This document shows positions 14,895-57,460 of a stretch of DNA of 64,000 nt, piece by piece. The notes beneath the pieces were generated by a model, which worked only from the letters and a program-made list of their open reading frames with translations, was not told where the DNA came from and made no database searches. The DNA comes from Lunularia cruciata (Eukaryota > Streptophyta > Marchantiopsida > Lunulariales > Lunulariaceae): positions 13,330,001 through 13,394,000 of the forward strand of contig OX419760.1 of assembly GCA_948567375.1 (NCBI GenBank). Reading direction: 5' to 3'. Within the stretch, counting starts at the first letter, position 1. Every line of letters begins with the position of its first letter. Made by a program: the position numbers and the translations under genes.

Positions 14895-15895
14895 GTCCAC
14901 CCTTGTTGCAAAAGTTACCTTTTATTGTTTTCCATCTTTTTCATAAGGATATAGTAGAATAATTGCTTGTTCCTAAAAGGAAACCTCTTAGGTGAGTTCT
15001 TTTTGGAGTTATGTTTATACATGCAAAGGTACAAAGATGAGTGAACTTCAAGGAATGATCCCAAAGAGGTCAAGTCCAAAGAATGCACAAATATAAAGAA
15101 CTCAAATACAAAGGTCCTTTGGACTCAGAAATAGTTCCCAATTTGAATGCACCACCATCTAGATAAAGAATTGCCACCAAGGACTATTGGTGTACATCAA
15201 ATGGGTTGCATGTGTGGAGAAGGATTTCACACTTATAGAAGGTCAATAACTAAAAGAGATTGGCTATAAAATCAAATGCTCATTGAGAAATTTTATTTTT
15301 TGCCAAGAGTTTTAAGCCTTAAACCCAAAGAATGATTTGTAACCTTCCTTAGATCTTTTTTGTTCATTTTAGTCCTTTGTAGCCTTCATAGTTGTTAAAT
15401 TTTTTTTTGTGCTCATAGCAGTCCAATAGGAAACATGTTATTCACATGTTAGAAGAAAAATCCCTCAAGTAATTCTCCATGCTCCATCATGAACAAGTGT
15501 GAAATATATTGCAGGAGTAAGCTAGATCAAAGTAAGGGATCTTTGGGAGATAGAAGAACATTGGAAGAATGTTTGGTTTGGATATGGCTCGAGTTAGAGG
15601 TACGATCCTTGACACCAAATTAAAGAATGCAAATAAGGAGGTGAACAAGAAAATTGTAGTCATTTAACAAGATGTGGTCCACCAACAATGGGTGGAGGGT
15701 AGGTAGTAAGAAGGACCCACCCTCTCCCTCAACCCCTGCTCCAAAGGGTAGTTTTGGAACCAATCATGAAATTGCTCAGGCCAAAGAGTACAACCTACAT
15801 CAATAACAGCCCGGTCATCTTCTTTACGTATATTTACCAAAGAGAGATGGTGAATTGAGCAAATGTGTTCTTCTTGCAAGCAAGAAGCATGATCA
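14895..15895. other. No gene seen
   Basis: Noncoding, AT-rich. A minus-strand ORF at 15664-16038 overlaps the start of the charged-protein relic on the other strand and has no motif, so I do not call it. Confidence 0.4.
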
Positions 15896-17400: not shown

Positions 17401-17446
17401 AATCATGTGACACCTTACTCTTGGAAATTATAGATTACAAGGAGAG

Positions 17447-17894
17447 TGTCATGCCATTTGTAGTGCCGCATCTAGATGCTCGGACACTGGAGTTCCAGTG
17501 ATAGTAGTTAGAGTTATTTCAGCAGTTTCTCAAAGACTGCTTTCTGACGGTTAGATTTTGTGTTTGGGGTATTGACTTCACGGTGGGGCCCACCGTCACT
17601 TTGCACCATTTGCATTGTCGAGTGTGCCGTTAGCGGGACCGTTAGGGTTTCAGAGCTAGCTTGAGTCCAAGGGGTATAGTTTCAAAGTGAGCTCCAGAGA
17701 GCTCACTTCTCTGATGTTGAGCCTTCGAGTTCCTAACTATGGTGGAGAGAGGCCGGTGAGCGTCACTTGGATTCTCCATGCTTGAGTGGGTGTGGCTTGA
17801 CTATAATCAGTGCCCAGTTGTTTGCAGTTTATAGAGTGATAGATCAAGTACTGATCTGAGTTGAGTTGAGTTGAGAGTGGTAAGCAATCTGATT
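17447..17894 (+). repeat. 5' LTR of family A element
   Basis: It begins TGTCATGCCATTTG and is collinear without gaps over 448 bases with 26785-27232. By hand I count about 30 differences (about 6.7 percent), about 27 of them transitions. Unlike the 3' copy, it is not followed by the 103-bp terminal block. The sequence after 17894 diverges at once, and no clear primer binding site was recognised. Confidence 0.9.
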
Positions 17895-19162
17895 ACATCA
17901 AAGAAGTGAAGTCAGGGGGAAATCGGGTGCAAGAACTTTGAGTGTTGGTGGTATCTCCAAGCTCGGTGGATTGTTGGTAGCTCAATTCAAGTTCAGTGTT
18001 TCCCTAGTGTGTAGAAGCTCATTTGATTGATGCAGATTTGGCAGTTAGGCGGACAGTGTGCGAAAGCGCTGGCTAAATTTCGAGCAAAGAAGGAGCAAAT
18101 TTCAACCAATGGTTGTGATTTTGAGCTCAAGAGGTGAAGGCAAGACCAATTTGCTGCGAGTTGGGTTCAGAAAGTCAAATTGAAGGTGGAGTTGTGAAGC
18201 TCTTCTCATGAATTTGTGATTTGGAGAAACCCGTGTTGTCAATTTGGCTTGAGTGGAAAGTTAGTGGGGGATTTGGCAGACAACCAACTTTAGGGTTTAT
18301 GTCAAATTTTGGTTGGGATTTACATCAGATTTTGGCCAGATTTGGAGGAGTTTTGCTAGTTTGGAGGACTTTCACAGATTTGGAGAAGTTTTGCCAATTT
18401 TGGAGGAGTTTTGAAGTGGCAACAAGAAAGGCCTCATTTGGCTGAATTTTGGCGTTTAGAGGCTTCAAGGCATAAGGCTGTGGGCTATGAGAGGCTACAA
18501 AGGGCCAGAAGGGCCAGCAAGCCAACTTGCTAGCGTGAGGCTAGCTAGTTTAGAGTAGATCTTGGTCATTGGTTGGAAAAATCTGCCTTTTCTGCTAGAT
18601 TGTGTGCAATAGGGTTTGACTCCTAGATCTCTTGTTCCTAGACTGGTGCCCTAGCCAACTGGTCGACCCTCACTTGTTGTCATAATGACTGTGCCATTGT
18701 TATCTATACACATGTAGCTTTGGCTAGGAGAGGCAATTTGATCCCATTCTTGGTGATCTTGGTAGCTTAGGACTTAGATACGAATTCCTCTTATGTCAAA
18801 TGCCAAATGGTAGCAGAGTCAGTCCCGTGTTGTGTTATGAGATGGAAGGTTTTCATTTAGATTTCTTGTGATTGGACCCCCTCCATTCTCTACTTCCTGT
18901 TTGTGCACCACATTTGTATGAGATGCCTTGACTTTTGAGCATTGGTGCTCTGGTGTGCTCTCGGTGGTGAGGCTGGAGTGACGACCAATTAGACTACCTT
19001 TGTTTCTCTCCGGTGAGGCAGGAAGTGATGACTTAAAGATCGTGAGAGTGCGTGTTATGATGGCAGGTTACAAGTTGCCCTTTATCCTAGTGTAGTTATC
19101 TCAATTAGAGTTACATTAGTGGGTGGTGCTTAGTTGGTGTTGGCACGTGGTGGTGTTGGCAC
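17895..19162 (+). other. Untranslated leader of family A element
   Basis: About 1.27 kb between the 5' LTR and the first Gag-like reading frame. Short Gly/Phe-type repeats of a GATTTGGAGGAGTTTTGC-like unit recur at about 18335-18420. Small ORFs here have no motifs. The − copy aligns only to its last part, near 57460. Confidence 0.6.
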
Positions 19163-20620
19163 TTGGTGGGGCACTTGCGGTTGCAATTGGTGGATCGGGT
19201 TTGCTATTGTGGTTACTTTGTCACGACGGAGTTCTTTGGAGATTCTAGAGGAGTTAGCCTTGCAGTATGCAGTGGGTTTACTTGGAGTGGTGCTCAGTAT
19301 CAGCCCGTATCTCAAGTCCCAGTGAGAGAGGAGATTGACTCTGAGTTGGGGTTTGACACCGGAGCTGATTCAATTGAGAGTGCACTCGGTGTGTCCGCAC
19401 CGTTGTTGTGGGACATAGACGAGATTTATGGGGCCTCCAAAGGCCCTAAACGTTACTCTAGTACAATGGGTATCATTGAGTTGGATGACTTCATCCAGGA
19501 GTTTGACAGTTGGTGTGATCTATAGTAGATGTGGAACCCGACTTTGTTCACACCCTTCATGGCATGGAAGGGGTTGTTTCAGCATCTAGAGGGTCCGCCG
19601 ATGGATGACTACCATGAGTTCAGGAGAGCTCATTTGGAGGAGATTGAGTTATGGAGACAGTATTGGTCTCCACATTATGTCTCCATCACTTCAGGCTCGG
19701 TGGCCAAGAGTAGATCGGCTGTACCTACAAGTTCTAGCTCGAGTAGTGTGGGTGGAGCTAGTGGAGGTGCACTAGCTGGAGATAGTGCTACTACGATTGG
19801 GGGTACCGTTGTAGGAGGTGGTGTGGTACTGAGGTTTAACCCTATGGTGGAGTTCTTCCTATGTTTGAGGTAGAACTAATAGGGAGTGCGGATTGACAAG
19901 CTGAGGAGCTTGCAAGAGTTCCAACGGAAGGCTGGAGAGAGCCTACGTGAGGCATACGCTTGCATGAGGCGGCTGATTAGTTTCACTCAGGGAGTTACTG
20001 AGGCCCAGGCAGTCCAATTTTGGTATGGGATACTGGACAGGGAGTTGTGACGTAGAGTTTGTGATGCTACGTTGTTGCAGGCTACTTTGCCCACTTTGGC
20101 AGTAGTCTTTGGTTTGGCTGAGCGTATTGAGCTCAATATGGTGGAGGAGAGAGTGGTGACATCTGGATTTGGTAGGGAGACCTCATCCACGGCTATGACT
20201 TCTTCTAGAGTGTAGCAAAGTGCACCACGCCCAGTTGGTTTCCGAGGATAGGGTGGACAGCCTAGATCCTATAGAGCGAGTGGAAGGCCTAGTGGAGCTA
20301 GACCCTTACCCTCATTTTTGAGTCAACAGCAGCCAGTGAGTGGTGGTGTTGCTTGTTGGACTTGTGGTGGACCTCACCATAGGAGAGAGTGTACTCAGGG
20401 CAGCGGACCTGATACCTCTGGTGCATCACAACCAGCACAAAGGCAGTGTGAGCACTGCCACAGATTTGGTCACACTAGTGACCGGTGTTTTGACCTACAC
20501 TTGAAGTTACGGAGTGGTAGGGCTACTATGGCAGGTAGTAGAGGAGCTCTAGTTCATGGAGGATGAGGTGGTGGTAGAGGATCTACACCTAGTAGGGGTG
20601 CAGTACCTGCTCTTACTTTT
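19163..20620 (+). pseudogene. Family A gag with two CCHC zinc knuckles
   Basis: Gag forms the particle and packages element RNA. Frame 2 is readable from 19163 and includes a helical segment at 19887-20180 of retrotransposon-Gag type (LRSLQEFQRKAGESLREAY, then AERIELNMVEE). Two zinc knuckles follow: CWTCGGPHHRREC at 20354-20392 and CEHCHRFGHTSDRC at 20447-20488 (CX2CX4HX4C). In-frame TAG or TGA codons occur at 19523-19528, in the CLR-N stretch near 19871, at 20048, and several further on. The exact ancestral start is uncertain: 19163 is the first Met of the open stretch, but homology with the − copy extends slightly upstream. Confidence 0.8.
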
Positions 20621-20923
20621 GACACAATTATGGCTACTCGGATTGAGCAGTTGGAGCAGAGATTGGCTAGTATGGCTATTGCCCAAAGGAGACCAGATTT
20701 GGGTGCTGAGGCTTCTACCTCATATGCTGGTGATAGAGATGCTTTGGACTTCATGTGCGGAGAAGCACAGGTGGATGCATCTGCAGCAGTGACTAGTAGT
20801 GCAGTACGTGCCCTAGAGCCTAGAGGAGCATCAGTGGAGTTGGATCCATAGAGAGGAGAGGTTGGGAGACAGGTCAAACTTCCCCCATCTTTCACGCTAT
20901 TTGAGGCATTGTAGACAATATCC

Positions 20924-21730
20924 ATGGTTCCTAGACGTCCTAGTGCAGGTGTGGTAGGTGGTGATGGAGTACATGATGGACTACCTGCTAGTCAGCCACC
21001 TGCTACTACACAGATTGAGTCTAGCATGATGTTGGGGGTGGCTCAGCTGATTATGCGGCATCCTTTGTTTTCAGCCAATGACATGTTTACATTGGAAGTT
21101 GATCCAGCCCCAATATTCCGATTGGCTGGCACATTGTGTGAGAGTAGGGATGGTGCAGTTCCTACTACTAGAGCAGAGGTGGCTGGTAGTGGAGCTGACT
21201 TGGTTGAGGAGCATGGGATCCGTTCAGCGACCATTGGTTTATGGCAAGTAGCAGTGGCTGGACTGGAGGAGTTGCCAGCTAGACCGGCCTTTGAGAGAGC
21301 GCGGTTTACACCTAGTGTTGTCCTATTGGATAACCAGAGGGGGATTTTTCATTTGGTGGGACCTTTAGGGAAGATCTATACACCACAAAGAGTCTTGTTA
21401 GACTCTAGTGCGCAGCCCTTTATGTTGGGGAAGGATGCAGTTGTCTGGTCTGGAGTTACGGAAGACCAATGTGGAAAGGTGTCCATTTCAGATCCAGACA
21501 TCTCTAGGTGGTGGTTCGACACAGTACATCACACGTGGAGAGCTTGTTGTCCAGGTTCAGCCTGGTCATCTGATTGATAGCTTGGTGGTGAGAGCTCATG
21601 CTATTGCAACAATAGTTGAGTCATATGATGTGCTAGTTGGAGGAGCAGTGTTATACCCCATGGGTTTCAGCATTGACTATTGGGAGGAGACAACCTCTTA
21701 TAGACCTGGTTGGCAGTCTGGTGAGGGACG
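20924..21730 (+). pseudogene. Family A aspartic protease region
   Basis: Matures the polyprotein. Frame 2 continues from gag through an unassigned linker and reaches LLDSSAQPFMLGK at about 21398-21436. This is the retropepsin active-site motif, where the usual D-S/T-G-A reads DSSA, so the glycine is lost. The remainder is in frame 3 after a shift between about 21440 and 21560: VESYDVLVGGAVLYPMGFSI matches the C-terminal flap and YDVLLG-type end of Ty3 proteases. The lost glycine and the frameshift make it inactive. The methyltransferase segment starts directly downstream. Confidence 0.7.
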
Positions 21731-23080
21731 GGTATGTCGTCTACCAGTACGCTTTAGTAGTGGCAGTCTTGGCTCACTACAGTCCAAGACCATGGCAACA
21801 TCAATTTTAGCTTTTAGTGGTGCAGTTACTTGGCTTGGTGACTTGTTGGAGGGGAACGCCCATGCAGAGGATACTCCAATACCAGAGGAGATCACTTGGC
21901 TTTGGAGTACAAGTGAGATTGTTCCATCCACCTTGGATGTTCCATTGTGGAGTTCAGAGGAGGCATTGCAGCAGCATGCAGATCAGTTGGTGCAGTAGGC
22001 TTGGAGTGGAGCCTTCGTACCATCAGGAGATGAGTATGAGGATGAGCCTCTAGAGGCAATTTCTTTGATACCTGTGGATACCACACTCATTGCTTGGCAG
22101 TATCCAGTAGAGGGGATATGCATATTGGAGTTGTTTGGTGGGATCAGCACCGGACTAGCTGCGGTGTTACAGGCGGGTATCCGAGTACAGAGGTACTTGT
22201 ATGTAGAAAGAGATGAGAGTGCTAGGCAAGTCTCTCTACATCATGTGGCACACTTGGCCTATCGGTATCCGTAGTTATTACCGATGTCAGCAATCAGAGG
22301 TTACCAAAAGGCCCTACCGGGAGACATTTCCTTACTGGGGGCGCATGACCTAGAGAGACATGGGCCTATTCACTTGGTGATTTCTAGATGGCCATGTTAG
22401 GGACATACACGTGCTATAGAGGATTGGGTTTTCAAGATCCTTGTTCTAGTGTGTTTTGGGAGATGTTACAGATACTACGACATCTCCAGGTTCATCAGTC
22501 TGTTTCTCCAGCTTACCTTTTGGAGAACGTTCCTTTGATGGGTGATTCTCGCACTAGAGTGGTGGCGAGTACACATCAGGTCCATTCTTGGATGGGACCT
22601 GTTGTATTGTTAGATGCAGCCAGAGTGGGATCACGGGCTCATAGTCTTTGTCTTTGGTGGACAAACCTCTTACTCAGAGAGGTTTTACAACACGCTTATG
22701 ATGGAATTCAACGACTTGACCACATCCTTGTTGATGATATCTTGGATGTTGGGCGTCAGTCTCAGACAATGGTAGTGGCTGATAGGTCACTTTTGGCAGT
22801 GGTGAACCTAGTTGGACAGCCTAGAGCCGCATTTCCCACACTCATGAGTTTCCCAAGCTCTCATGCTTTTTGAGAGGAGGACCTGGACTTGTTTGAGACT
22901 CACAGTTACAATAGTTGGTGGAGCCCAACGCTGATGAGAGAGAGCAGGCAATGGGTTTTCGCACCGGTATTACCGCTATTCCAGTAGTGTCAGAGGCATC
23001 CAGGCGTCATGTGTTAGGTCAGGCTATGGACCTGAACTATTTGACATGGATTGTGAGCCTTGGCTTGGCAGAGCAGCGTA
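21731..23080 (+). pseudogene. C5-cytosine DNA methyltransferase domain (DNMT3-like) in the polyprotein
   Basis: Transfers methyl from S-adenosylmethionine to cytosine C5. Motif I, ILELFGGISTG, is at 22122-22154, followed by the SAM-ribose acidic region RYLYVERDESA. Motif IV is at about 22371-22418 and reads VISRWPC then TAG then GHTRA, so the catalytic Cys (22395-22397) survives and the next residue is now a stop. Motif VI, ENV, is at 22523-22531. Motif VIII, LDAARVGSRAH followed by LWWTNL, is at 22601-22669. The C-terminal motifs IX-X region, EREQAMGFRTG..RRHVLGQAMDLNYL, is at about 22936-23055. Two frameshifts (about 22420-22435 and 22875) and several stops kill it. Motif spacing resembles DNMT3/DRM rather than CMT/MET1. 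The domain sits between protease and RT. Confidence 0.87.
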
Positions 23081-23640
23081 GGATGCGCTTGATAGGCATC
23101 ACCACTCGAACACTTGTGAGCCATGTGCCTATCAAGACGATTCAGGCACATGCTGGGGGCAATGGACCGAGTGGACATGGTATTCTTGGGACACATCCAG
23201 TAGCTACTAGGGAGAGTGGTCTACTTGGAATCCATCCAAGTGAGCATGGGCTACTTGGATTACACCCTTGGTCCACATGGGATGCAGCTAGAGGACATGT
23301 GGAGCTTACAGCCAGAGTGGAGGGAGTTTTTCACACAGAGGTTGGGACCTCTAGTGGTCGGGAGCATGACACTATTGCCCCCAAGGGCCCAGTGTAGCAG
23401 TCAGTCAGTACGTCTTCCACTCCTACTACAGGTACACAAGATACTTGGGAGCCAGATCTTGGACCCAAGCTTATTGGAGAGGAGAGACAGAGGGTTTTGA
23501 GGTTCTTGAGGAGTCACACAAGTTGTTTTGCCTTCAGTGTGAAGGATTTGGGTGCTTTGAAGGGACCTGGTATAAAGATTGAGTTGACTAATGACACACC
23601 AGTTTTCCGATATCCTTATCGATATAGTGATATGGAGAGG
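23081..23640 (+). pseudogene. Methyltransferase-RT linker with short peptide repeats
   Basis: Frame 1 is open except for stops. Residues at 23170-23268 form three imperfect repeats ending in LG(T/I/L)HP (HGILGTHP, SGLLGIHP, HGLLGLHP). They are followed by a stop at about 23395 and then sequence leading into RT. The same region is recognisable in the − copy near 54640-54880. No catalytic motif. It may be a flexible spacer. Confidence 0.55.
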
Positions 23641-24507
23641 ACATTGATTTAGAGCCAGAGTAGTGACCTTTTTGAGGCTGGTTTGGTGGAGATTTCACAT
23701 GGAGAGTATGCATCAGCAATAGTGATGCCAACCAAGAAGGATATGCATGGCAACTATATAGATAGGCAGATGTGCGGAGATTACCGTCCTATCAACCGAC
23801 AGACCAGGGCTGATTGGTATGCCATGCCTACACCGGAGGAGATTTTTGATGCGATTGGGCATGCAAAGATCTTCAGTACTTTGGATCTTTGAGCAGGATA
23901 TCATCAATTGCCGATCAGGGAGGAGGATAGGTCCAAGACAACATTTTGGGCTATTGATCCTCACGGCAAGGATGTGTTATATCAGTGGAGGTTCTTACCA
24001 TTTGGGTTAAAGAATGCTCATGTTGAGTTCCAGAGGGTCATGGATAGGATCCTAGCTGGATTGGATTTTGCTTGGTGCTATATTGATGACATTTTGGTTT
24101 ATAGCACTATTGTGGAGGAGCATGAGAGACAGTTGTTGGAGGTGTTTGAGAGGTTGAGATCTCATGGACTCAAATTACATCTTGGGAAGTGTAGGTTCTT
24201 CCACGAGCAGGTTGAGTATTTGGGTCACACTATCTACCCCGGAGGACTTGGTGTTCAGTAGACCAAGGTGGAGGCTATTGCACGTATTCCTTGGCCTACG
24301 GATGTGAGTAGAGTGCGAGCATTCCTTGGGTTGGTGAACTTCTATCGCCGCTATATTAGAGGATTTAGTGCCATTGCTAAGGCCTTGATGAAGCTGACCA
24401 AGCTTACACAGGAGTGGTGTTGGGGAGATGAGCAGGAGAGAGCTTTTGTAGAGCTCAAGGAGAGGTTGACATCTGCTCCTATTTTGAGGAGACCGATTAG
24501 AGGATGA
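23641..24507 (+). pseudogene. Family A reverse transcriptase
   Basis: Copies element RNA into DNA. Frame 1 carries the RT fingers (CGDYRPINRQTRADWYAMP), then FSTLDL, a TGA and AGYHQLPI, then RFLPFGLKNA and the catalytic YIDDILVYS with YIDD at 24079-24090. The thumb segment LGKCRFFHEQVEYLGH and the connection domain FLGLVNFYRRYI follow. Stops are TGA at 23890-23892, TAG near 24259 and TGA near 24505. Frame is otherwise maintained and catalytic aspartates are present. YIDD instead of YVDD or FADD is usual for Ty3 elements. Confidence 0.92.
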
Positions 24508-24885
24508 CCATTTCAGGTTCACATTGATTGGAGTATGTTGGGGCTTGGAGCGGTGCTCACCCAGCATGATGATGAGGAGAAGGAGTTTGTGGTGGCCTAC
24601 GCTAGTCGCTCCAACAATTCAGCGGAGGCGAAGTATAGTTCATATGAGGGAGAGTGCTTGGCAGCAGTTTGGGCAGTAGCACATTTCCGATGTTACCTAT
24701 TTGGTAACCCCTTCACTCTCATCATTGATCATCAGCCGCTGAAGTGGTTGATGGAGTCCGATAAGCTTTCAGGGAAGCTTGCACAATGGGCTCTGATTTT
24801 ACAAGAGTATGATTTCACCGTTGTTCATAGACCTGGAGTGGTGAACCGTGATGCAAATAGGTTGAGTAGAAACCCATGTCCCAGC
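24508..24885 (+). pseudogene. Family A RNase H
   Basis: Removes RNA from the RNA-DNA hybrid. The first Asp is in HIDWS (about 24523-24537), the Glu in YEGECLAAVW (about 24643), and the later Asp in IIDHQPLKWLM near 24727. The domain ends with VVNRDANRLSRNP, the classic C-terminal Ty3 RNase H stretch. Apart from the TGA just upstream it is uninterrupted, so this is one of the better-preserved parts of the element. Confidence 0.9.
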
Positions 24886-25059
24886 CAGCAGGATCAGACC
24901 AAAACACGCTGGCATGGTGAGACAGATGAGGAGATGGTGCCAGGTTGGCATGCATCGGCCTTTCTATGTATATTTGCAAAGGCTTTGGTGGTATCTCTCT
25001 CAGTGCATACAAGAGGAGTTATTGAAGTCACAGTTCCAGAGAGTGAAGATATTAGTACA

Positions 25060-26340
25060 GTTCAGCAAGACATTCACGATGATGTCTTAGTGATGGACTA
25101 TCTTTGCACTGGTGATGTGGGTGGCACAGTTGGGGCCAAGGAGAGAGACCGTGTTCTTCAGCAAGCCAGACGGTTCAGATTGGAGGGTAGACACCTTTTG
25201 CGTGTATGGAGGGATAGTAGAGTGCAAGTAGTACCACTACCAGCATAGAGACCACAATTGGTCCATCATGCTCATGAGGAGCTAGGACATTTTGGAGTAA
25301 AGCATACATATAGCTTACTCCAGAGTCATTATTGGTGGTATGGTATGCAGACCAAGGTACAGCAATTTGTTGCCAGATGTTTGGTTTGTGACCAAGTTAG
25401 AGCATCATTCAATGCTCCTATGCCACAGTTACACCCATTACCTATCATGGGATTGGGTTATCGTTGGAGTTTGGACTTCATTGGACCTTTACCGCTGACT
25501 GTGAGACATCATCGGTATGTTTTGGTGATGGTGGAGCACTTCTCCAAGTGGATTGAGTTGGTGGCACTTCCTAAAAAGTCTAGTGAAGGGACAACTTACT
25601 CGTTCCTGGATCAAGTTCTTAGTCATTTTGGTGCACCAACTGAGGTTTTGACTGATCAAGGTACAGAGTTCTTGGGGGAGTTTCAAGTCTTGTGTGACAA
25701 GGCTTTGATTGATCATCGTACTACATCCCGAGATCACCCTGAGGCAGATGGCTTAGCAGAGAGAGTGGTTCAGACGGTGAAGAGAGGATTGCAAAAGTAT
25801 GGTTTGCAGAGAGGCCACTTGGGAGATTGGGATCTCCAATTACCTTGGTTGGCCATGGGCTATTGGTTCAGCTAGCAAGCCTCCTTAGCATCCTTCTCTC
25901 CATACTTTCTACTCTATGGACAAGATCCAGATTTACCTGTAGCCATTTGTCGAGATGCTACTGTAGTTTTGGACTTGGACCCCGATGTATGGATGAGTGC
26001 ATGTTCTCAACGTGCAGAGATCTTTCAGAGAGTGATGTCAATGGCCTTTGAGAACTTAGCGATTGCTCAACATAGAGATACTTTACGCTATGCTACCATT
26101 TGAGGAGGAGGTTATAGACCCTCAATCTATCTACTTCATATAGGCGACTATATATATCTACAGCAAACAGCACCGACGACACTTGATTTTTCTACAGGCT
26201 GCACTATCTTGAGAGTGCGTGAGGTTTTGCCATTTGGAGTCCTTGTGTTAGAAGGACGTGATGGTGTTGTTTGGAAGGATCATGTGCGCAATTGTGCGCC
26301 ATGCCACCTCCCAAACATTGATGGTACTATGGACCCAAGC
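25060..26340 (+). pseudogene. Family A integrase
   Basis: Inserts the cDNA. The zinc-binding N domain has HHAHEELGH and CLVCDQ (25261-25395). The DDE core has WSLDFIGPL, VLTDQGTEF and HPEADGLAER at about 25471, 25651 and 25735, so all three acidic residues are kept. The C-terminal region continues in frame 1 to IYLLHIGDYIYLQQ and VVWKDHVRNCAPCHLPN near 26310. Stops are TAG at about 25246 and 25873 and TGA at about 26101. It runs without a break in frame into the PHD finger. Confidence 0.92.
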
Positions 26341-26367
26341 TTGGCACTTGTACGTGCAGGCTTGAGG

Positions 26368-26508
26368 TGTATGTTATGTGGCTCTTCTGGTGGAGCTGCT
26401 ACTATGTTAGTGTGTGATAGTTGTTTGAGAGGATGGCATATGGCATGTATGACTCCTCCCCTCACGGTGGTTCCTCAAGGATAGTGGTTATGTCCTAGAT
26501 GTACTTGA
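26368..26508 (+). pseudogene. PHD finger at the C-terminus of the integrase
   Basis: PHD fingers bind two zinc ions and usually read histone H3 tails. All eight ligands (Cys4-His-Cys3) are present: CMLC at 26368-26379, CDSC at 26413-26424, the His and Cys of GWHMAC (26434-26448), and CPRC at 26491-26502 after WL. The tryptophan two residues before the last Cys pair, typical of PHD fingers, is kept. A TAG at 26482-26484 precedes that tryptophan; the − copy has the same TAG. The likely natural end is TGA at 26506-26508, also shared. It occupies the place taken by a chromodomain in chromoviruses. A zinc finger of another class is less likely given the spacing. Confidence 0.85.
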
Positions 26509-26675
26509 CCTAGAACTAGTTCATTCTTTATATGGTATAGATTGCAGACAAGCGACTAATGATGGGGCTCCATAGCACCCGGCCTCCTGATCTTTGCCCA
26601 TTAGAGGGTATACCATATACTTAGAGTAGATGGCTATTTGGAGTTAGAGGGACCTAACCGCCAGCTAGGAGGGCA

Positions 26676-26778
26676 ATTGTGGCACTTTAGAGTCTATGTA
26701 GGACTTATGTGTGAGTTGTGTTTCTATAGTGTATGATGTTGACAGCGATGTATGTTGTGTAGCGATGTATATACGCAC
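26676..26778 (+). repeat. 103-bp block upstream of 3' LTR (T1)
   Basis: Nearly identical to 27230-27332 at the end of the 3' LTR; both start ATTGTGGCACTTTAGAG and end ATATACGCAC. The block is absent after the 5' LTR. The same arrangement occurs in the − copy at 47603-47710 and 47077-47169. Confidence 0.9.
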
Positions 26779-26784
26779 AAAAGC

Positions 26785-27336
26785 TGTCATGCCATTTGTA
26801 GTGCCGCATCTAGATGCTTGGACACTGGAGTTCCAGTGATAGTAGTTAGATTTATTTCAGCAGTTTCTTAGAGACTACTTTCCGACGGTTAGATTTTGTG
26901 TTTGGGGTATTGACTTCATGGTGGGGCCCACCGTCACTTTGCACCATTTGCACCATCAAGTGTGTCGTCAGCGGGACCGTTAGGGTTTCAGAGCTAGCTC
27001 AAGTCTAGGGGGTATAGTTTCAAAGTGAGCTCCAGAGAGCTCACTTCTCTGATGTTGAGCCTTCGAGTTCTTGGCTATGGTGGACAGAGGCCGGCGAGCG
27101 TCACCTGGATTCTCTATGCTTGAGTGAGTGTGGCTTGATTGTAATCAGTGCCCAGTTGTTGGCAGTTTATAGAATGACAGATCAAGTACTGATCTGAGTT
27201 GAGTTGAGTTGAGAGTGGTAAGCAATCTGATTGTGGCACTTTAGAGTCTATGTAGGACTTATGTGTGAGTTGTGTTTCTATAGTGTATGATGTTGACAGC
27301 GATGTATGTTGTGTAGCAATGTATATACGCACGACA
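26785..27336 (+). repeat. 3' LTR of family A element with terminal block T2
   Basis: Positions 26785-27232 match the 5' LTR. The 103-bp block T2 (27230-27332) follows and ends CGCACGACA, giving terminal inverted TGTC...GACA. If the LTR is TG...CA over 552 bases, the next bases AGAG (27337-27340) repeat those before the 5' LTR. The 5' LTR is therefore about 104 bases shorter than the 3' one. Confidence 0.8.
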
Positions 27337-27340
27337 AGAG

Positions 27341-32300: not shown

Positions 32301-32394
32301 TCTTAATGCCTTTGTTCAGTCATCTAACACAAGAGGAAAGTTATCTCCAAAGCTATCAACTATTACTTATCTATCTTTGATATATATAATGACC
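29391..32394. other. No gene; includes degenerate tandem repeats
   Basis: Noncoding and AT-rich with dense stops. The only structure I see is the repeat array described separately at 30228-31450. No promoter, RNA gene or element end was recognised in the rest. Confidence 0.45.
30228..31450. repeat. Degenerate tandem repeats, unit about 110-140 bp
   Basis: A theme recurs in one orientation: CACAACCTCTTGATTTACTA-like sequence, then CTAGCTTGATGTGGATA-like sequence, then GGTGTTCTTGGAAATAAGAG-like sequence. Instances begin near 30228, 30345, 30975, 31085, 31230 and 31305. Units vary in length and are strongly diverged. Confidence 0.55.
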
Positions 32395-41120: not shown

Positions 41121-41142
41121 TTTTGAGCCGCCTACTGGGAGC

Positions 41143-43196: not shown

Positions 43197-43200
43197 TGAT

Positions 43201-47076: not shown

Positions 47077-47600
47077 TGTCATGCACATATGCATCATTAT
47101 TAACGTCTTATACTATAGAAGCACAACTCACACATAAGTCATACATGAACTCTAAAGTGCCATAATAATCAGTTCATTCTTCTATTCAAATGATATTCAA
47201 CTTGATCCTTCACTCAAAAATCTACGAACAATAGGGCATTGATTATAGTCAAGCCACATCCACTCTAGCTAAAAGATTCCAAGCTTTGCTCACCAGCCTT
47301 TGTCCACCATAGCTACAAACTTGAAGGCTCAACATTAAAAAAGTGAACTCTCTAGAGCTACACTTCAAAGGTATATCCCTTTGCTTGACCTAGGTCTCCA
47401 ACCCTAATAGTGACGTTGACAACACATCTGACATTGCAAATGGTGCAAGTGATAATGGGTCCCACTATGTGATCAATAGCTCTAATATTAAATTAGACCA
47501 TCAACAAGTAGTCCATGAGTTACTACCAAAATACCTATGATTACCAACTACCACTCCAACATCTGATCAACTTAGCTTTGGCAATACAAATGTTGTGATA
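47077..47600 (-). repeat. 3' LTR of the − family A copy
   Basis: The minus-strand end is GTGCATGACA at 47077. Positions 47077-47169 match the 103-bp block T2 and 47170-47600 match the LTR body (TTGAGCCTTCAAGTTTGTAG and other blocks). Block T1 occurs again at 47603-47710 immediately upstream of the LTR start. Confidence 0.75.
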
Positions 47601-47894
47601 GTTGTCATGCATACATACATTGCTATACAACATACATCATTGTCAATATCATATACTATAGAAGCAAAACTCACACATAAGACATACATGAATTCTAAAA
47701 TTCCACAATTGCTCTCCTAGCTAGCAGTTAGGTCCTTCTAACTCCATATTGCCATCTACTCCAAGTATGTGGTATACCCTATGGTGGGTAAATTTCAAGA
47801 GGCAGTGTGCTATCAAGTCCCATCGTTAGTCACCTCTTTGCAATCTACACAACATAAAGGATGAACTAGCTATAGGTCAAGTACATCCAGGACA

Positions 47895-48240
47895 TAACCA
47901 CTATCTTTGAGGAACCATCATGAGGGGAGGAGTCAAACATACCATATGCCATTCTCTTGAACAACTATCACACACCAACATAGTTGCAACTCCACTAAAA
48001 GAGCCATATAACATACATTGCAAGCTTGCACGTACAAGTGCCTAGCTTGGGTCCATAGTGCCATCAATGTTTGGGAGGTGGCATGGCGCACAATTGCACA
48101 AATGATCTTTCCAAACAATATCTTCACATGCTTCCAACATAAGGACTTTAGAAGGCAAAACCTTACACTCTCAAGATAGTGCAACTTGTCGTAACATCAA
48201 GTGTTGTTGGTGTTGTCCACTATAGATATACATAGTCACT
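47895..48240 (-). pseudogene. PHD finger and integrase end of the − family A copy
   Basis: On the minus strand, ATGTTAGTGTGTGATAGTTG-equivalent and GGCATATG-type blocks correspond to the CDSC and WHMAC part of the PHD finger. GATAGTGGTTATGTCC near 47888-47905 corresponds to its last Cys pair, with the same TAG as in the + copy. CCAAACATTGATGGCACTATGG-type sequence at about 48050-48070 matches the integrase-PHD linker. One of the first ligands appears changed (TATGG for TGTGG near 48005), so the finger is damaged here. Confidence 0.65.
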
Positions 48241-48887
48241 TACATGAAATCAACAGATTGAGTGTTTATAACCTCTTCCTTGAACAAACACAAAGGTATC
48301 CTTATGCTAAGCAATTGCTAAGTTCTCAAAGGCCATTAGGTCACTCTCTAAAGATCTCTACCCATTGAGAATATGCGCTCACCCATACACTTGGATCATT
48401 GAAGTCCAAAGCTATAGTAACATCTTGATAAATGGCTAAAGGTAAATCTGGATCTTGTCCATAGAGTAGAAAGTAAGGAGAGAAGGATGATAAGGAGGCT
48501 TGCCGGCTGATTCAATAGCCCATGGCCAACCAAGGTAACCTAAAAGTCCCCCAGGAACTTTGTACCTTGATCAATCAAAACCTCAATTGGTACACCAAAA
48601 TCACTAAGAACCCAATCTAGGAATGAGTAAGCAATCCCTTCCCTAGACTTGTCAAGGAGTGCCACCAACTCAATCCACTTAGAGAAGTGCTTCACCATAA
48701 CCAAAACATACCAATGATGTCTCACAATCAGTGGTAAAGGTCTAACAAAGTCCAAACTCCAACAATAACCCAATCCCATCATAGGTAATGGGTGTAACTG
48801 TAGCATATGAACATTTAATGATGCTCTAACTTAGTCACAAACCACACATATGGCAACAAGCTATTCTACATTGGTTTGCATACTACA
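48241..48887 (-). pseudogene. Integrase, 3' part, of the − family A copy
   Basis: The minus-strand block 48540-48806 reads LQLHPLPMMGLGYCWSLDFV, then LVMVKHFSKWIELVAL and VLIDQGTKFLGDF, the DDE core region of the + element with substitutions. Its continuation upstream stops at 48887, where the family B derivative inserted with a CTACA duplication. Confidence 0.85.
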
Positions 48888-50465
48888 TGTAATACTCTGA
48901 GGACAAGAGAAGAGAGAAAACACAGATTACACACTCAACATTCAATGCCCCAAAGGAGCACCTTCTCTTTTTTATATAGACAAGGAGGATCTCCTCCAAG
49001 GAAGCTCCACCATATGATTAGGAACACATATAGGTGACATGTCAGTAAGATCCACCCTTGGATTACTTACTTGGATGGGTGACATGTCTGGTCTAGGTCC
49101 TATCTGGTTGGTCAAACAAGCTTTGACCAGAGGGAATCTTTTAGGGAATCTTCTTGTAGGAATCTCAAGATCACATGAGTAAGGTACCATTGGAAAGCTC
49201 TCGATGAGACAAAGCAAGGGGGAGGGATGGCCAACCTCTTCTCCATTGGGAGGGGGGATCTGCACATTTTCAAGGCCTAATTCATCCATTTAGGCCTCCA
49301 AAATTGCCTTCAAAGATTTCAAGCATATTTTGGTTCTACTCTATTAGTATAAGTCCCCTTTTGGTGATACCTCTTTCTGATCTGTTCAGTCATCATGTAT
49401 AACATCCTTCCCAATATTACCAAACCAATTCTCCCTTTAAATCATATGTCTAGCTATTGGTTCTAAGGTTCTCAAGTCTATTTTAGTTTCTGCTCTATTA
49501 GTAGAATTACTCTTTTGGTGATACTTCTATCTTATTTATTTTGACCATCATGTATAACATCATTCTAGATGTTACCAAACCAAATTTCACATCTAGATCA
49601 TATGGCTAGCTCTTGGTATTACAAACCTCACTCCTTTTAAGACGCAATGTCCTCATTGTGCAATTGTTGCTCAAATGCTTGCACCAACACCGGTGCATGT
49701 ACCAAATTGGCAGCGGGCTCCCAGGTTGCTTCATAGAGGGGGTAACCTTTCCATTGTACTAGATAGTCCACCCGTGGATGGCGAGTATAACATATGCATT
49801 TTTGGAGAATCCGCTCCACTTCATATTCCTCTATGCCATCAATGAGTGTCAGACAAGGTCAAATGTCTAGTGTGGAATGACCTTGGCCTGATCGGGGAGC
49901 ATATCTGTGTAGTAGGGAGACATGGAACACTGGATGGATCTTCATGTGTGGTGGTAGCTCAAGGTGATAGGCCACAGCGCCGATGCAACAAAGAATCAAG
50001 AAAGGCCTTATAAAACAAGGTCTAAGCTTACAAGGTCCAAAAAATGTGAGGTTGGTTGTCGATAGCCACACCTAATCCCCAACATTGAACTCCATGCATC
50101 AACACATTTTTGAGGCTTGATTCATCCATTTTGGCCACCAAAATTGCCTTCAAAGATTTCAGGCATATTTTGGTTCCTACTCTATTAGTAGAAGTCCCCT
50201 TTTGGTGACACCTCTTTCTGATCTGTTTAGTCCATCATGTGTAACATCCTTCCAGATGTTACCAAACCAATTCTCACCTTTAAATCATATGTCTAGCTAT
50301 TGGTTCTAAGGTTCTCAAGTTTATTTTGGTTTCTGCCCTATTATAAAAGTAATCTTTTGGTGATACTTCTATCTTATCTATTTTGACCATCATGTATAAC
50401 ATCATTCTAGATGTTACCAAACCAAATTTCACATCTAGATCATATCGCTAGCTCTTGGTATTACA
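48888..50465 (-). mobile_element. Deletion derivative of a family B chromovirus
   Basis: A 736-bp 3' LTR (48888-49623, TGTAATACTC...GGTATTACA) is followed in minus orientation by the end of pol (chromodomain 49637-49819, integrase C-terminus 49859-50071). It then joins at about 50105 to the last about 360 bases of the 5' LTR, ending at 50465. CTACA at 48883-48887 and 50466-50470 is a perfect 5-bp target duplication, so the deletion happened inside the inserted element or its cDNA. The chromodomain keeps YLVQWKGYP and ATWEP. Confidence 0.9.
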
Positions 50466-50506
50466 CTACACCACCAATAATGACTCTAGAGTAAGCTGTA
50501 TGTATG

Positions 50507-52734
50507 TTGTCATATTTTGCTTTTCTCTCTTGTGGAACACATAGAGTGCCTAGCTATGGAGCTTATAGATCAAAGGTTAGAGGTATCCCTATTAGTTTGA
50601 GCATGCAAAGATCCCAACAAGTAGAACCTTTCACTCTAGGTTTTGGTATTCTTGCTATTGAGTAGAGTAATAGTAACGGGTGAAACTTATCATCATAACA
50701 TGCACTCCTGGTCTATTGGTCATCACTTCCAATATTACCAAGGAGAAATAGGAGAATCTAAGTATAATTTTTGACACACCAATCCAAACCAATTAGGCAT
50801 ACAAACAAGCATGCAAGCACGAAGAGGATCCAATCACAAGAATCCAATCACAAGAATCCAATCATAAGAATCCAACAACAACTCTTTGTACCTTTTGTCA
50901 AAATTGAGCTTAAGAGCACTCTTGCTTTGTCAACAAGCCAATTTCAACCTTTACTCCAAGATTCCTCCAATATTACTTCAGTCTTCACCCAATTTATACT
51001 CCAAGTAGAGTGATCTTGTGTCCTATTGACAAAGAAAATCCTATGTAACTTAGATGGACATAACTTTCTCTTTATAATCTTTATTATGATTTTCTAGGAT
51101 TCAATGGAAAACCTATGAGATAAGCTTTCCAAAAATAAAAAATAAGCCATAATCTAATTGCTATAGCTCCCCTAACAAACTCTCAAACTTAGCTAGCTTT
51201 TTGTAATTTTTATCTTAGTTTTGAAATCCCTAATTTAGAGTTTGCTCCTAGTTCTGGGTAGTTTTCCCTAGATTTTTGGATCATAGGTGCACATAATCCT
51301 CACAAACACTCCAAGAACTTAAAAACCTCAGTCATAGATACAAAAATAGGAGAATGTATACTCAATAATGATAAAATATAGAAATGCTCTCTCGAGCTTA
51401 CAATGATATTTTTAGTAGAGTTTGTTGCATTAGCTCTCTTTTTCCATGGACCCAGACAAAGTCAACCAAAATTTTCACATTAGTTTTTTTATTTTATTTT
51501 CTAAACCTTTGTAATTTTAGTACCCTAATCCAACCCCAAATGCTAGATATGGATCAATTCTTGAGCTGGACTAACTTGTGAGCTCTATAGACCCAAGTAT
51601 GCTTGATCCAAGACCCTAAATTTTCTATTTGAGAAATTCACATGAAACCTTTGCACAAAATTTCAAACTCTAGCCACCAAAAGTACTAGAAATTTTGACA
51701 AGGTGATTTGGACCTGAACTTTAGGAGTGACCAAATCTTCAAACCTGATCAGAATGTAATCTCCAACTCCTTACTTTCCAAAGCTCCAACTTCAATTGGC
51801 CAGATCTAATTTGATATTGATCAAAATCTAAAATTTCTTGAGCTCCACATTACAAGCACTCTGTCAAATCATCAACCCAATTGAAAAATCATGAAGATAT
51901 TTCATGAATCTCTCCAAATAACCTATTTTGTGCTCCTAGGTATGAATTTTACCCTTCTTGACTCAATCAATTATATCTTGCAGAGAATTGACTCAAATCA
52001 CTCAATTTTAATCTCCAAATTATTGCTTGTCATCTCCTCTCTCCAACAGTGGTCCTTACTCATAGAATAACTTCTCCAAACTCCCTCAATGGTAAAAAAA
52101 ACTCACAACTTTTTCTTGGAATCCAATCTCTTGCAATTTTATCATTTAGCCTCTTCACTTTTTGACAAGTGGACCACACAACTCCATCTTGAAGCTCATG
52201 AGCAAAATTGAATCATTCTCCTACTACAAGAGCACATAGATTGACAAGTCTCATACTTGATTTTAAGTAAGCACCGGAAGGACAATAAGATATGGGTTTT
52301 CTATCATCGACATTATAAATATCGCCCCAAAATGTGCCACCATCCAATCCCATGAGTCATCATGGTGTAGAATCTGAAGCCTGAAGAATGAGGAATTGGG
52401 AGTGGCAGATTGGGAGCATGGGACATCTCCTAATCAATTACTCTCTCTGACGCCCGGCCTCCATGCTATGCTCTCACTCTCAACGTCCTCCTCTCACTTG
52501 AGACTCCTCCAACTAAAACAAACCTTCCACCCTATTCTCCACCATCTATATACATAAGAACCCTCAAAGAAGACAAGACCATAATCCATGTGGCCAATTG
52601 TATACATGTACATAGATTGCACATATGGTAATAACTCAACTATGGGGTCCATCATACAACCTACTCCATCTTTATCGAGATAAACCACATTAGTTTACTT
52701 TTTCAAGGGCTATGCAAACCACAACACAATAACA
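50507..52734. mobile_element. 2.2-kb insertion of unknown type in the − family A integrase
   Basis: Family A integrase homology runs up to 50506 (GTAAGCTGTATGTATG) and resumes exactly at 52735 (CTTTACTCCAAAATGTCC). The intervening DNA has no ORF with motifs. Its ends read TGTTGTC... and ...ACAATAACA, a short TGTT/AACA inverted pair, and a TATA-like ATGTATATAGATGG lies on the minus strand near 52540. A solo LTR is plausible, but no target duplication is visible. Confidence 0.55.
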
Positions 52735-54430
52735 CTTTACTCCAAAATGTCCTAGCTCCTTGTGAGCATGATGGACTAATTGTGATCTTTGAGATGGAAG
52801 TAGTACTACTCATACTCTACCATCCTCCCATACATGAAAAAGGTATCTACCTTCCAATCTAAACCACCTGGCTTGTTGAAGCTCATAGTCTCACAACACC
52901 AATTGTGCCACCCACAACACCAATGCAAAGATAATTTATTATTAAGACATCACCATGAATGTCTCACTGAATTGTAGCAATATCTCCACTTTTTGGATCT
53001 ATGATCTCAATAACTCCTCTTTTATGTGTTGAGAGAGATACCACCAAAGCCTCAAAAAATATATATAGAAAGGTAGATGCATGCCAACTTGGCACCATCT
53101 TCTAATTTGTTTCACCATGCCAATGTGCTTTGATCTGACCCTATTGGCTAGGACATGGGTTTCTACTCAACCCATCTGCATCATAGTTCACCACTCTAGG
53201 TTTGTGAATAATTGTGAAATCATACTCTTGTAAAATTAGAGCCCATTGTGCAAGTTTCCTTGAGAGATTGTCAAACTCTATCAACCACTTCAATGATTGA
53301 TGATGAATGATGAGAGAGAAGGGACTAGACAACAAAAATATTCTACTACCCATATTGATCCCAAACACTCTCTCTCATATGAATTATATTTTGCCTCTAT
53401 TGAATTGTTAGAGCAACTAGCATAAGCCACCATGAACTCCTTCCCTTTATCATCATGTTAAATGAGCACTACTCCGAGCTCCAACAAACTCCAATTAGTG
53501 TGAAATTGGAATGGTAGTCCTCTAATTTGTCTCTTAAGAATAGGAGCAGATGTCAACCTCTTCTTGAGCTCTATAAAAGATCTCTCTTACTCATCTCTCC
53601 AACACTACTCATGTGTGAGCTTGATCAGCTTCATCAAGGCCTTGGCAATGACACTAAATTCTCTGAAATATTGGTAATAGAAGTTCACCAACCCAAGGAA
53701 TGCTTGCACTTTGCTCACATTCATAGGCCAAGGAATACATGCAATAGCCTCCACCTTGGTATGCTAAACACCAAGTCCTCCAAGGTAGATAGTGTGATCC
53801 AAATATTCAACTTGCTCATAGAAGAATCTACACTTCCCATGATCTAATTTGAGTCCATGAGATCTCTACCTCTCAAACACCTCCAACAAATATCTCTCAT
53901 GCTACTCCATAATAGTGCTATTGACCAAAATTTCATCAATATAGCATTGAGGAAAATCTAATCTTGCTAGGATCCTATTCATGACCCTATGGAACTTGCC
54001 AAGAGCATTCTTTAACCTAAATGGTAAGAACCTCCACTAATATAATACATCCTTGCCATGAAGATCAATAGCCCAAAATGTTATCTTGGACTTATCCTCC
54101 TTCCTAATCGGCAACCGATGATATCTTGCTCAAAGATCAAAAGTACTAAAGATCTTTGGATGCCCAATTGCATCAAAGATCTCCTCCGGTGTAGGCATGG
54201 CATACCAATCAGCCATAATCTATCAATTGATAGGATGGTAATTTGCACACATCCACCTATTTTTGCAGTTGCTATGCATATCTTTCTTGGTTGGTATCAC
54301 TATAGTTGAAGCATACTCTTTATGTGGAATCTCCACCAAACCAGCCTCAAAAAGGTCTCTACTCTAGCTCTAAATCAATACTCTCTCCATGTCACTATAT
54401 TTGTAGGGATGTCAAAAACTAGTGTATCAC
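52735..54430 (-). pseudogene. Integrase start, RNase H and RT of the − family A copy
   Basis: RNase H at 53141-53368 reads IIHHQSLKWLIEFDN and VVNYDADGLSRNPCPSQ, matching the + copy. RT runs on to about 54430 with the catalytic motif YIDE at 53932-53943 instead of YIDD, so a catalytic Asp is lost. The stop TGA in FDL-stop-ARYH near 54128 is at the same codon as in the + copy. Numerous other stops and small indels are present. Plus-strand ORFs here are antisense shadows. Confidence 0.8.
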
Positions 54431-54589
54431 TAGTTAACTCAATCTGAATACAAGGTCCTTTCAAAGCACCCAAATCCTTCATACTAAAGGCAAACAAACT
54501 TGTGTAGCTCCTCAAGAACCTCCAAACTCTTTGTCATTCTCCTCTTGTAAGCTTGGGTCCAATATTTGGCTCCCAAGTATCCTTTTTAA

Positions 54590-55222
54590 TTGATGTAGGA
54601 GTGGAAGACATACTAATTGGCTACTACACTAGGCCCTTGGGAGTATAGTAGTAATGTCATGCCCCCAACTACTAGAGTTCCCAACCTCAATGTGGAAAAC
54701 TCCTTGTGCTTTAGCTTCAAGCTCCTTAAGTCCTCTAGCTCCATCCCAAGTAGACCAAGGGTGTAATCCAAGTAGAATACACTCACATGGATGGGCCTCA
54801 AGTAGACCACTCTCACCCGTAGCTATTGGTTGTGTCCCAAGAATACCCTATCCACTTGCTCCACCACCCCTAGCATGTGCTTGAATCGTCTTGATAGGCA
54901 TAGAGCTCACAATTTTCCAAGTACTGATGCCTATCAAGTGCATCCTTTGTTGCTTTGCCATGCCAAGGCTCACAATTCAGGTCAAATATTTCAGGTCTAT
55001 AGCCTGACCTAACACTTGATGCCTAAAAGCCTCTCATACTACTATTACAACAATAATATCGATACAAATACCCATCACCTGCTCCTTGTTATTAGCATTG
55101 AGCCCCACCAACTATTGTAATTGTGAGTCCCAAAAAAGTCCAAGACCTCCTCTTGACAAGCATGGGAACCTAAGAAACCTAAGAAACTTATAAGTGTGGT
55201 AAAGCGGCTCTAGGCTATCCAA
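54590..55222 (-). pseudogene. Linker and C-terminal methyltransferase tail of the − family A copy
   Basis: The minus strand matches + copy positions 22811-23400: a TTGGATAGCCTAGAGCCGC start at about 55222, then GGAGCAGGTGATGGGTATTT, CATCAAGTGTTAGGTCAGGC and GAATTGTGAGCCTTGGCATG. This is the motif IX-X end of the methyltransferase plus the HP-repeat linker (54640-54880). The part carrying motifs I-VIII is absent, and protease sequence follows directly beyond 55223. Confidence 0.8.
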
Positions 55223-57460
55223 CATGATCCCTTACTTGACTACCAAACTGGTCTATATGAGGTTATCTCCTCCCCACAATCAATATTGAAACCCATGGAG
55301 TACAAAATTGCTCTACCAACTAGCACATCATATGACTCTATTATTATTGCAATGGTTTAAGCTCTCACCACAAAGCTATCAATCAGATGACCAGGTTGAA
55401 TCTAGACAATGAGCTCTCCACATGTGATGTATTGTGTAAAACCACCCCTTAGAGATGTATGGATCTGAAATGGACACCTCACCATATAAATAGGACAACT
55501 CTATGTGAACCAAGCTTGCTCAAAGGCAAGTCTAGCTAGTAACTCCTCCAAGCTAGTTGCAACAACCTACCATAAACCACTAGTTGTTGAACGGATCTCA
55601 TGCTCTTCAACCAAGTTAGCTCCACTATCAACCACCTCTACTCTAGAAGCAAGAACCACATCATCCCTACTCTTAGAAAGTGTGGTAGTTAATTAACATA
55701 CTAGAGCTAGGTCAACTCCTAAGGTAAATATGTGATTGGTAAAGAAAAAAGGAAGTGCATAATCAAATAAGTCACCTTTAACATCGTGCTAGATTTGTGT
55801 ATGTGTAGTAGTAGGTAGTTGGCTAGCATCTAGTCTATCATGCATTCCATCACCACCTACCACACATGCACCAGGACATCTAAGAGCCATGGATGTTGTT
55901 TGTAATGCCTCAAAGACTATGAAAGACTAGGGGAGTCTGACCTATCTACTAGCCTCCCCTCTCTATGGATCCAACTCCACTAATGCACCTCTAGGCTTTG
56001 GAGCATGTACTACACTCCTAATCATTGTGGCAAATGCATCTACTTGTACTATTCCACACATAAAGTCCAAGACATCTCTATCACAAGCATAAAGATGTAG
56101 AAGCCTCAACACCCAAATCTGATCTCCTTTGAGCTATGGCCATGATAGCCAATCTTTGCTTTGACTATTGAACTCAAGTAGCCATAGTTTTATAAAAAAT
56201 AAGGGCAAGTACTACACCCCTACTAGGTGTGGATCCTCTACTACCACCTCTACCACTTGCCATAGCAGCCCTACCACTTTGTAACTCCAAGTAAAGGTCA
56301 AAGCATCGATCACTAGTGTGACCAAATCTGTGGCAATGGTCACCTTGTCTTGGTGCTGGCTGAGATGCATGAAAGGTATCATATCAATTTCCCTTAGTGC
56401 ACTCTCTCTTGTAATAAGATCCACCACAAGTCCAACAACACCACTCACTAGTGATTTCTTACCTAAAAATGAAGGTAAGGATCTAGCTACAATAGGCCCT
56501 CCACTAGCTCTATAGGATCTGTGTTGTCCACTCTATCCTGAAAAGCCAACATAGCGTGGTGCACTTTGTTGCACTTTAAAAAAAGTAACAATTGTGGATG
56601 AGATCTCCTTACTAAATCCATATGTCACCATTCTCTCCTCTACCATGTTGAGCTCAATATGCTCAACCAAACTAAAGACCATTGCCAAAGTTGGTGAAGT
56701 AGCATGTAATAACATAGCATCACATACTCTACATTGCAACTCCTTGTCCAAGATCCCATCCCAAACTGATCTGCATAAGGCTCAATAACTCCATGAGTGA
56801 AACTGATCAACAATCCCATGAATTTTATACCTTGTATAGGCTCTCTCTTACCTTCTGTTGGAACTCCTACAAGCTCCTCAGCTTATCAATCCGCACTCCT
56901 TGGTAGTTTTACCTCAAGCATTGGAGGAACTCCACCATGGGGTTAAATCTTGATATTGTACCACCTCATGTAGTGATACCTCCACTTGTAGTAGTACCAT
57001 CTCCAACTAGTGCACCTCCACTAGAACCACCAATGCTACTAAAGCTAGAACTCGTGGGACAATCCATGCCATAAGGGTGTGACAAAAGTTGGGTTTTGTA
57101 TCTATTGTAGATCACACCAACTATTAAACTCTTAGATGAAATCATTCAACTCAATTGTACCTTCTGTACCAAAGTAGCACTTAAGGTCTTTGGAAATCCC
57201 ATAAATCTTATTCATGTCCCATAACAACAGTGCAGACACACCAAGTACACTCTCAATTGAATCAGCTCATGTTTCAAACTCCAAGTCAAAATCAGTCTCT
57301 TCTCTCACTAGGACCTAAGAAATAGGCTGATATTGAGTCACACTCTATGTAAACCCATTATGTATTGCAATGATATCTCCTCTAGAATCCCCAAAGAACT
57401 TTGTCATGACAATGTAACTCAAATTGTAATCATAACCATCATAAGTACCCCATCAAGGAT
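55223..57460 (-). pseudogene. Protease and gag of the − family A copy
   Basis: Protease C-terminal sequence lies at about 55250-55480 and gag follows to 57400. The second zinc knuckle is recognisable on the minus strand (HCHRFGHTSDRCFD, near 56290-56340) and the first near 56410-56440. A gag helix at 56640-56750 reads AMVFSLVEHIELNMVEERMV. Frames are broken in many places. At two codons where the + copy has TGA this copy has CAA (56734-56736 and 55153-55155). Homology to the leader fades near 57460. Confidence 0.75.

Follow-up and report, generated by a model that had tools for sequence, protein, structure and literature searches.

In the liverwort Lunularia cruciata, a decayed Ty3/gypsy retrotransposon carries within its polyprotein a cytosine DNA methyltransferase domain that, by sequence and predicted fold, is closest to DNMT3. 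The copy, here called element 1, lies in a 64,000-nucleotide stretch of contig OX419760.1 (positions 13,330,001 to 13,394,000; the whole stretch is called the window). It is a dead copy with a polyprotein of seven parts (gag, protease, methyltransferase, reverse transcriptase (RT), RNase H, integrase, and PHD finger) and ends built as split direct repeats, and its most likely place is in the lineage of the Gypsy-Dnmt3 element of the alga Klebsormidium nitens. Hosts silence transposons by cytosine methylation, so a transposon that carries a methylating enzyme looks paradoxical. Relatives of element 1 occur in peat moss and a green alga as well as in liverworts, so it belongs to an old, little-noticed kind. 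The PHD finger behind its integrase points to a chromatin-reading counterpart.

Residues 301-650 of a related protein, P0055, align by tblastn at 22074-22415, 22418-22870, and 22852-23121 (60-74% identity, E 5e-123). At that E value the match is not due to chance, the more so because the sole other window match of this region at E < 0.1 is a remnant in a second copy of the same family (copy 2). A first-pass annotation had placed the domain at 21731..23080; it is there, although its aligned start lies about 340 bases inside that span and its end about 40 bases beyond it. All of the motifs named in that annotation (motif I, the motif IV Pro-Cys, ENV, AARVGSRAH..WWTNL, and MGF..RRHVLGQ) are present and follow one another linearly, with a protease-like region before them and the RT after them. 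The single collinear reading frame that it described is absent: motif I (ILELFGGISTG) is read in a first frame, ENV and the SRAH..WWTNL block in a second, and MGF..RRHVLGQAMDLN in a third, and in-frame stops occur, including one immediately after the motif IV Cys. Motif I stands upstream of motifs IV, VI, VIII, and the C-terminal motifs, and the order is not circularly permuted as in DRM.

The window's own pieces gave no C5-methylase Pfam match, and the NCBIfam 'dcm' superfamily matched only far under its cut-off. The best PDB match of piece 21999-22274 was DNMT3A, at only E 0.027, and piece 22388-22870 had no PDB match. Decay and splitting account for the missing Pfam and PDB matches; the strong profile matches come from relatives. 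The profile check proposed in the first-pass annotation accordingly comes out in two ways: negative for the window's pieces, and positive (PF00145) for family members.

Two comparisons point to the DNMT3 type: the family profile has DNMT3A as its best match (E 1.4e-9), and the predicted fold is closest to DNMT3A/B. Other origins were set aside: DRM, on the linear motif order and the alignment of DRM structures over part only; Dnmt2 and bacterial-type methylases, since profile and fold comparisons favour DNMT3. The catalytic Cys is present in 38 of the 42 family rows that cover motif IV; the others have two gaps, one Tyr, and one Ser.

Judged from sequence, the domain belongs to the family as a whole and occupies the same position in the longer relatives. 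A protein search with 161 residues returned 52 relatives among 127 candidates (all E <= 2.2e-21), fragments that include Sphagnum troendelagicum, Marchantia paleacea, and Calypogeia fissa. Of 1930 candidates in a second search, 21 longer proteins matched, including 14 from M. polymorpha, two from Sphagnum, and one each from Calypogeia and K. nitens. Precomputed Pfam data assign PF00145 to 17 of these 21; in our own scans it passed the cut-off in 13 of 16 longer proteins and 5 of 10 shorter fragments. In P0064 and P0073, RT and RNase H follow the PF00145 domain. The K. nitens protein, P0073, reads methyltransferase, RT, RNase H, integrase, with protease homology before the methyltransferase, and element 1, its frames broken, is collinear by tblastn with P0073, P0064, and P0071 in having the methyltransferase between protease and RT. 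The M. polymorpha rows keep the Cys in 12 of 14 cases, and two of them, P0054 and P0056, cover all 350 reference columns. Thus the first-pass proposal of a DNMT3-like C5 methyltransferase in a plant Ty3/gypsy polyprotein holds family-wide. In a midpoint-rooted tree of piece 22388-22870 with 32 of the 73 family proteins (the ones with an alignment of 130 residues or more), the window sequence falls among bryophyte and unnamed rows, near M. paleacea with weak support (88/90 and 89/81), and K. nitens falls outside. Searches of viral and of bacterial/archaeal contigs gave 4, 40, and 126 pattern matches, and no confirmed relatives.

Could a host DNMT3 gene or pseudogene simply have inserted once, in this gypsy copy, without any role in the element? 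Element 1 is decayed, and copy 2 has no counterpart of 21729-22810, which is most of the methyltransferase. Copy 2 retains the C-terminal end of the domain, however, which means that the missing part was deleted from an element once possessing the whole; and polyproteins of M. polymorpha, Sphagnum, and K. nitens carry this domain in the corresponding position. A single insertion is therefore extremely improbable, and the presence of the domain beyond one copy, on which the first-pass annotation had made its claim depend, is borne out by copy 2 and by several other plants.

Several points weigh against a functional DNMT3-type enzyme, or against its pairing with a PHD finger. The predicted model is weak (mean predicted local distance difference test score, pLDDT, 45.5), with TM-scores to DNMT3 of about 0.5 and root-mean-square deviations of at least 7 in most rows. 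The ENV Asn, kept in 66 of 67 rows, is His in the exception, P0073. Of 69 rows, 47 have one and 52 the other of the two Arg near motif VIII in the AHRPRLWW block, and this variation means that many fragments may be decayed too. The M. polymorpha entries are protein models, in which stops may be concealed by predicted introns. Neither window copy is intact, and these two decayed copies reveal no clear constraint on the methyltransferase: they differ by 23% in its remnant (codon positions 14/24/31%, 166 bases), 13% in RT, 12% in integrase, 20% in gag, and 28% in A2, one of the repeats described below. The PHD finger is known from this window only, as P0073 and P0071 stop short of it. Finally, the main text of PMC5890265 reports no methylation in yeast by the domains of KnitGypsy-Dnmt3, the closest relative assayed, and of SymbioLINE, a negative that its authors call inconclusive because human DNMT3B failed too.

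Some of these points would suit a methyltransferase kept for a non-catalytic use, or one that acts on RNA: the yeast result for the K. nitens domain, the loss of the ENV Asn in P0073, and the varied residues near motif VIII in some rows. RNA methylation has indeed been raised for the LINE-type element (PMC5890265). Nevertheless, the prevalence of the catalytic Cys, together with a nearest fold and profile of DNMT3 rather than Dnmt2, makes this alternative unlikely. The same paper describes CG methylation in yeast by two Symbiodinium DIRS-Dnmt3 domains, and Ka/Ks below 0.2 for the KnitGypsy-Dnmt3 domains (PMC5890265).

The remainder of element 1 (Table 1) is that of a Ty3/gypsy element with unusual ends. 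Its pol order, RT-RNase H-integrase, is the Ty3/gypsy one (Pfam on pieces: RVT_1, RT_RNaseH, Integrase_H2C2, rve, and PHD), and the C-terminal integrase piece is 53% identical to P0073. The gag start is set by homology. No protease Pfam match was obtained in the window pieces; VLLDSSAQPFMLG is what we take to be the retropepsin motif. The PHD finger has C4HC3 ligands by eye, its last Cys pair (WLCPRC) following the in-frame stop. Element 1 is a dead copy, interrupted by stops in frame and by some three frameshifts. Between 22915 and 26481 a single frame is unbroken but for 8 stops (the other two have 61 and 84), and relative to the Marchantia model P0056 (1278 amino acids) the frame changes near 21417-21457, 22415-22421, and 22849-22870.

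Integration was apparently by the DDE integrase. Ends of the TG...CA type and a short target duplication are present (a 4-bp match such as AGAG on both sides arises by chance about once in 256), but the repeats, which in Ty3/gypsy elements are direct long terminal repeats at both ends, are split: A1 stands alone on the left, B1-A2-B2 on the right, giving the order A1...B1-A2-B2 between TGTC and GACA. Behind A1, a low-stringency search found no B copy, and no tRNA primer site was recognised by eye. A spacer of 2 bases separates B1 and A2 in both window copies, by eye.

Under ordinary long terminal repeat (LTR) replication the A and B pairs should be of the same age, yet their divergence is unequal: 30/448 (6.7%) for A1/A2, 1/103 (1%) for B1/B2 (Fisher p 0.017). 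This is what a later local duplication would give, and B1-A2-B2 might then be a chance rearrangement of ordinary LTRs in element 1; the 5' end of copy 2, moreover, was looked for and not found. Copy 2 has the same B1-A2-B2 order at a different site, however (its B repeats lie at 47712-47608 and 47166-47089), and DIRS-like repeats are described for K. nitens as well (PMC5890265), so that a chance rearrangement is very unlikely. Transitions make up 27 of the 30 A1/A2 differences, with 5 in CG, 5 in CHG, and 17 in CHH contexts. The observed/expected CpG ratio is 0.36 for element 1 and 0.08-0.26 for the other stretches measured, values uninformative on self-methylation.

Table 1. Features of element 1 and copy 2 (window coordinates)
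Feature	Position	Strand	Basis
Element 1, Ty3/gypsy with DNMT3-type methyltransferase, decayed	17447..27336	+	Terminal repeats, TGTC...GACA, 4-bp duplication, collinear protein matches
Target-site duplication AGAG, left	17443..17446	.	Right copy 27337-27340
A1, left half of split direct repeats, starts TGTC	17447..17894	+	93.3% to A2, 448 nt, gapless
Gag through protease start	19415..21457	+	tblastn of Marchantia P0056 residues 1-656, 50% identity, frame 2
Retropepsin-like region (VLLDSSAQPFMLG), frame change within	21389..21755	+	Aligned to P0056, P0064, P0073
DNMT3-type C5 methyltransferase domain, three frames	22074..23121	+	tblastn of P0055 301-650; family profile
Reverse transcriptase	23446..24507	+	RVT_1 4e-24 (piece 23893-24258); P0064 alignment
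RNase H and connection	24508..25245	+	RT_RNaseH 3.3e-34
DDE integrase (H2C2 zinc finger, rve core, C-terminal part)	25249..26100	+	Integrase_H2C2 2.7e-16, rve 3e-14
PHD finger behind integrase	26368..26502	+	PHD 3.5e-7 (Pfam); KMT2D PHD 6.6e-8; one in-frame stop
B1, internal B repeat	26676..26778	+	102/103 bases same as B2
A2, internal A repeat	26785..27232	+	Repeat comparison with A1
B2, right terminal repeat, ends GACA	27230..27336	+	B1 match covers 27230-27332 (99%)
Copy 2, same family	47089..57418	-	blastn blocks 72-95% identity to element 1; B1-A2-B2 at 3' end
Insertion interrupting copy 2	about 48884-52734		Within it, 37-nt element remnant 50470-50506
Methyltransferase C-terminal remnant in copy 2	54905..55150	-	46% identity, E 1.8e-15

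How might such an element use its parts? The activity, substrate, timing, and benefit of the methyltransferase are what we infer here. The enzyme would be produced along with RT and integrase, packaged together with them, and either released or kept beside RT in the particle. It could then act on CG sites of newly made element DNA, so that new copies arrive pre-marked and are less visible or harmful to the host; alternatively, its target may be chromatin at the insertion site, chosen with help from the PHD finger. In chromoviruses, chromodomains tether the integrase to chromatin, and the PHD finger may likewise tether the integrase of element 1 to a histone H3 state. The internal B1-A2 block may serve as the template that restores terminal sequences absent from the transcript. 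With such templating, the A1/A2 and B1/B2 pairs could be inherited in part independently of each other, which could explain their unequal divergence; gene conversion of neighbouring B copies is an alternative.

The window holds further elements. Three more places align to the RT or integrase of the relatives, at about 41.9-44.1, 59.4-60.7, and 61.9-64.0 kilobases (kb), and none has a methyltransferase match at E < 0.1. Only the first is a fair methyltransferase-free control, because the stretch before its RT (41104-41817, protease-like by eye) lies inside the window; for the third, the region before RT is beyond the window end, and the second is a fragment. Two Ty3/gypsy elements besides element 1 and copy 2 were delimited at 41104-44712 (no methyltransferase seen) and 61732-63563. 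A 346-residue open reading frame (ORF) of the latter has its best match in M. paleacea, at 80% identity across 64% of the query, and among the best 120 of its 170 relatives all six organism-named rows are liverworts, with Riccia sorocarpa at 66-71%; the seed-plant host hinted at in the first-pass annotation finds no support in them.

Three near-identical repeats (95.7-97.3%) lie at 14191-14901, 32383-33093, and 60723-61416. The first two flank element 1 and are 96.1% alike, against 93.3% for A1/A2, which is odd for simple nesting. A direct repeat of 1.2 kb (91%), with units of about 157 bases inside it, occupies 48887-50096, within copy 2, and 57918-59127, just past its 5' side. On the minus strand, 7188-7742 holds a 184-residue ORF that by eye resembles a PIF1-type helicase and may stem from a Helitron.

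A charophyte case, mentioned in the first-pass annotation, is KnitGypsy-Dnmt3 of K. nitens, and element 1 is most likely a new member of its lineage; the kind is hence not unprecedented. According to de Mendoza et al. (2018; PMC5890265), KnitGypsy-Dnmt3 has repeats of DIRS structure with gypsy domains (Fig. 4 legend) and an intron-less DNMT3 within its Pol ORF. P0073 (KFL_009030040), which the main text of that paper does not name, is taken as a member.

Did bryophyte and K. nitens elements acquire DNMT3 separately, at the same place in related gypsy elements? The K. nitens case is worded as an independent acquisition in PMC5890265, and methyltransferase identity to K. nitens is only 34-45%. 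Against this stand the domain order and flanks common to both, the DIRS-like repeat layout in K. nitens too (PMC5890265), and the similarity of P0055 and P0073 (45% identity over 260 residues, 200 bits by BLASTP), compared with 44 bits by phmmer for P0055 and DNMT3A, two scores only roughly comparable and from a set without plant host DNMT3 genes. Separate captures are thus quite unlikely. Shared place, flanks, repeat plan, and protein similarity favour a single capture, in a common ancestor or followed by transfer from one lineage to the other, over two. A bolder version is possible but doubtful: a gypsy element may have captured DNMT3 once, before land plants and K. nitens split, and kept it beside split-repeat ends and a DDE integrase, the bryophyte PHD finger being added later. 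The result would be a mobile pair of writer and reader, able both to select the places where it inserts and to mark them.

Occurrence in K. nitens as well as in liverworts and Sphagnum suggests long maintenance, and not an oddity confined to a single alga. In the gypsy case already published, the host is an alga, and the enzyme could not be shown to act in yeast (PMC5890265). As far as literature searches show, wide presence in bryophytes, M. polymorpha included, is new, as is the PHD finger: no land-plant element of this kind was found among titles and abstract starts of mostly openly accessible papers; 'PHD' has no occurrence in the main text of PMC5890265; and neither 'PHD' nor 'methyltransferase' occurs in the plant LTR-element survey PMC6317226. 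Since the genetic model M. polymorpha has such protein models, two of them spanning the whole domain, why an element methylates DNA becomes directly testable.

PAT-like DIRS elements follow the split-direct-repeat plan A1...B1-A2-B2 and encode a tyrosine recombinase. Element 1 shares this terminal layout, and differs in its DDE integrase, TG...CA-type ends, and 4-bp target duplication. With KnitGypsy-Dnmt3 it has in common Ty3/gypsy domains, a DNMT3 domain in Pol, and DIRS-like repeats (PMC5890265), and, through P0073, the methyltransferase between protease and RT and the DDE integrase; the host differs (alga versus bryophyte), as does the methyltransferase, at the identity given above. No contrast is drawn over the PHD finger, as P0073 ends before that place. 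The Symbiodinium elements SymbioDIRS-Dnmt3 and SymbioLINE-Dnmt are likewise retroelements with a cytosine methyltransferase, of the DIRS and LINE classes, and PMC5890265 states no relationship between them and the Gypsy case in its main text. The plant genes PpDNMT3a/b have a DNMT3-type domain, unlike the rearranged DRM (Yaari et al. 2019, PMC6453930); as described there, they are host genes with DUF3444, outside retroelements, and are set apart from element 1 on that description.
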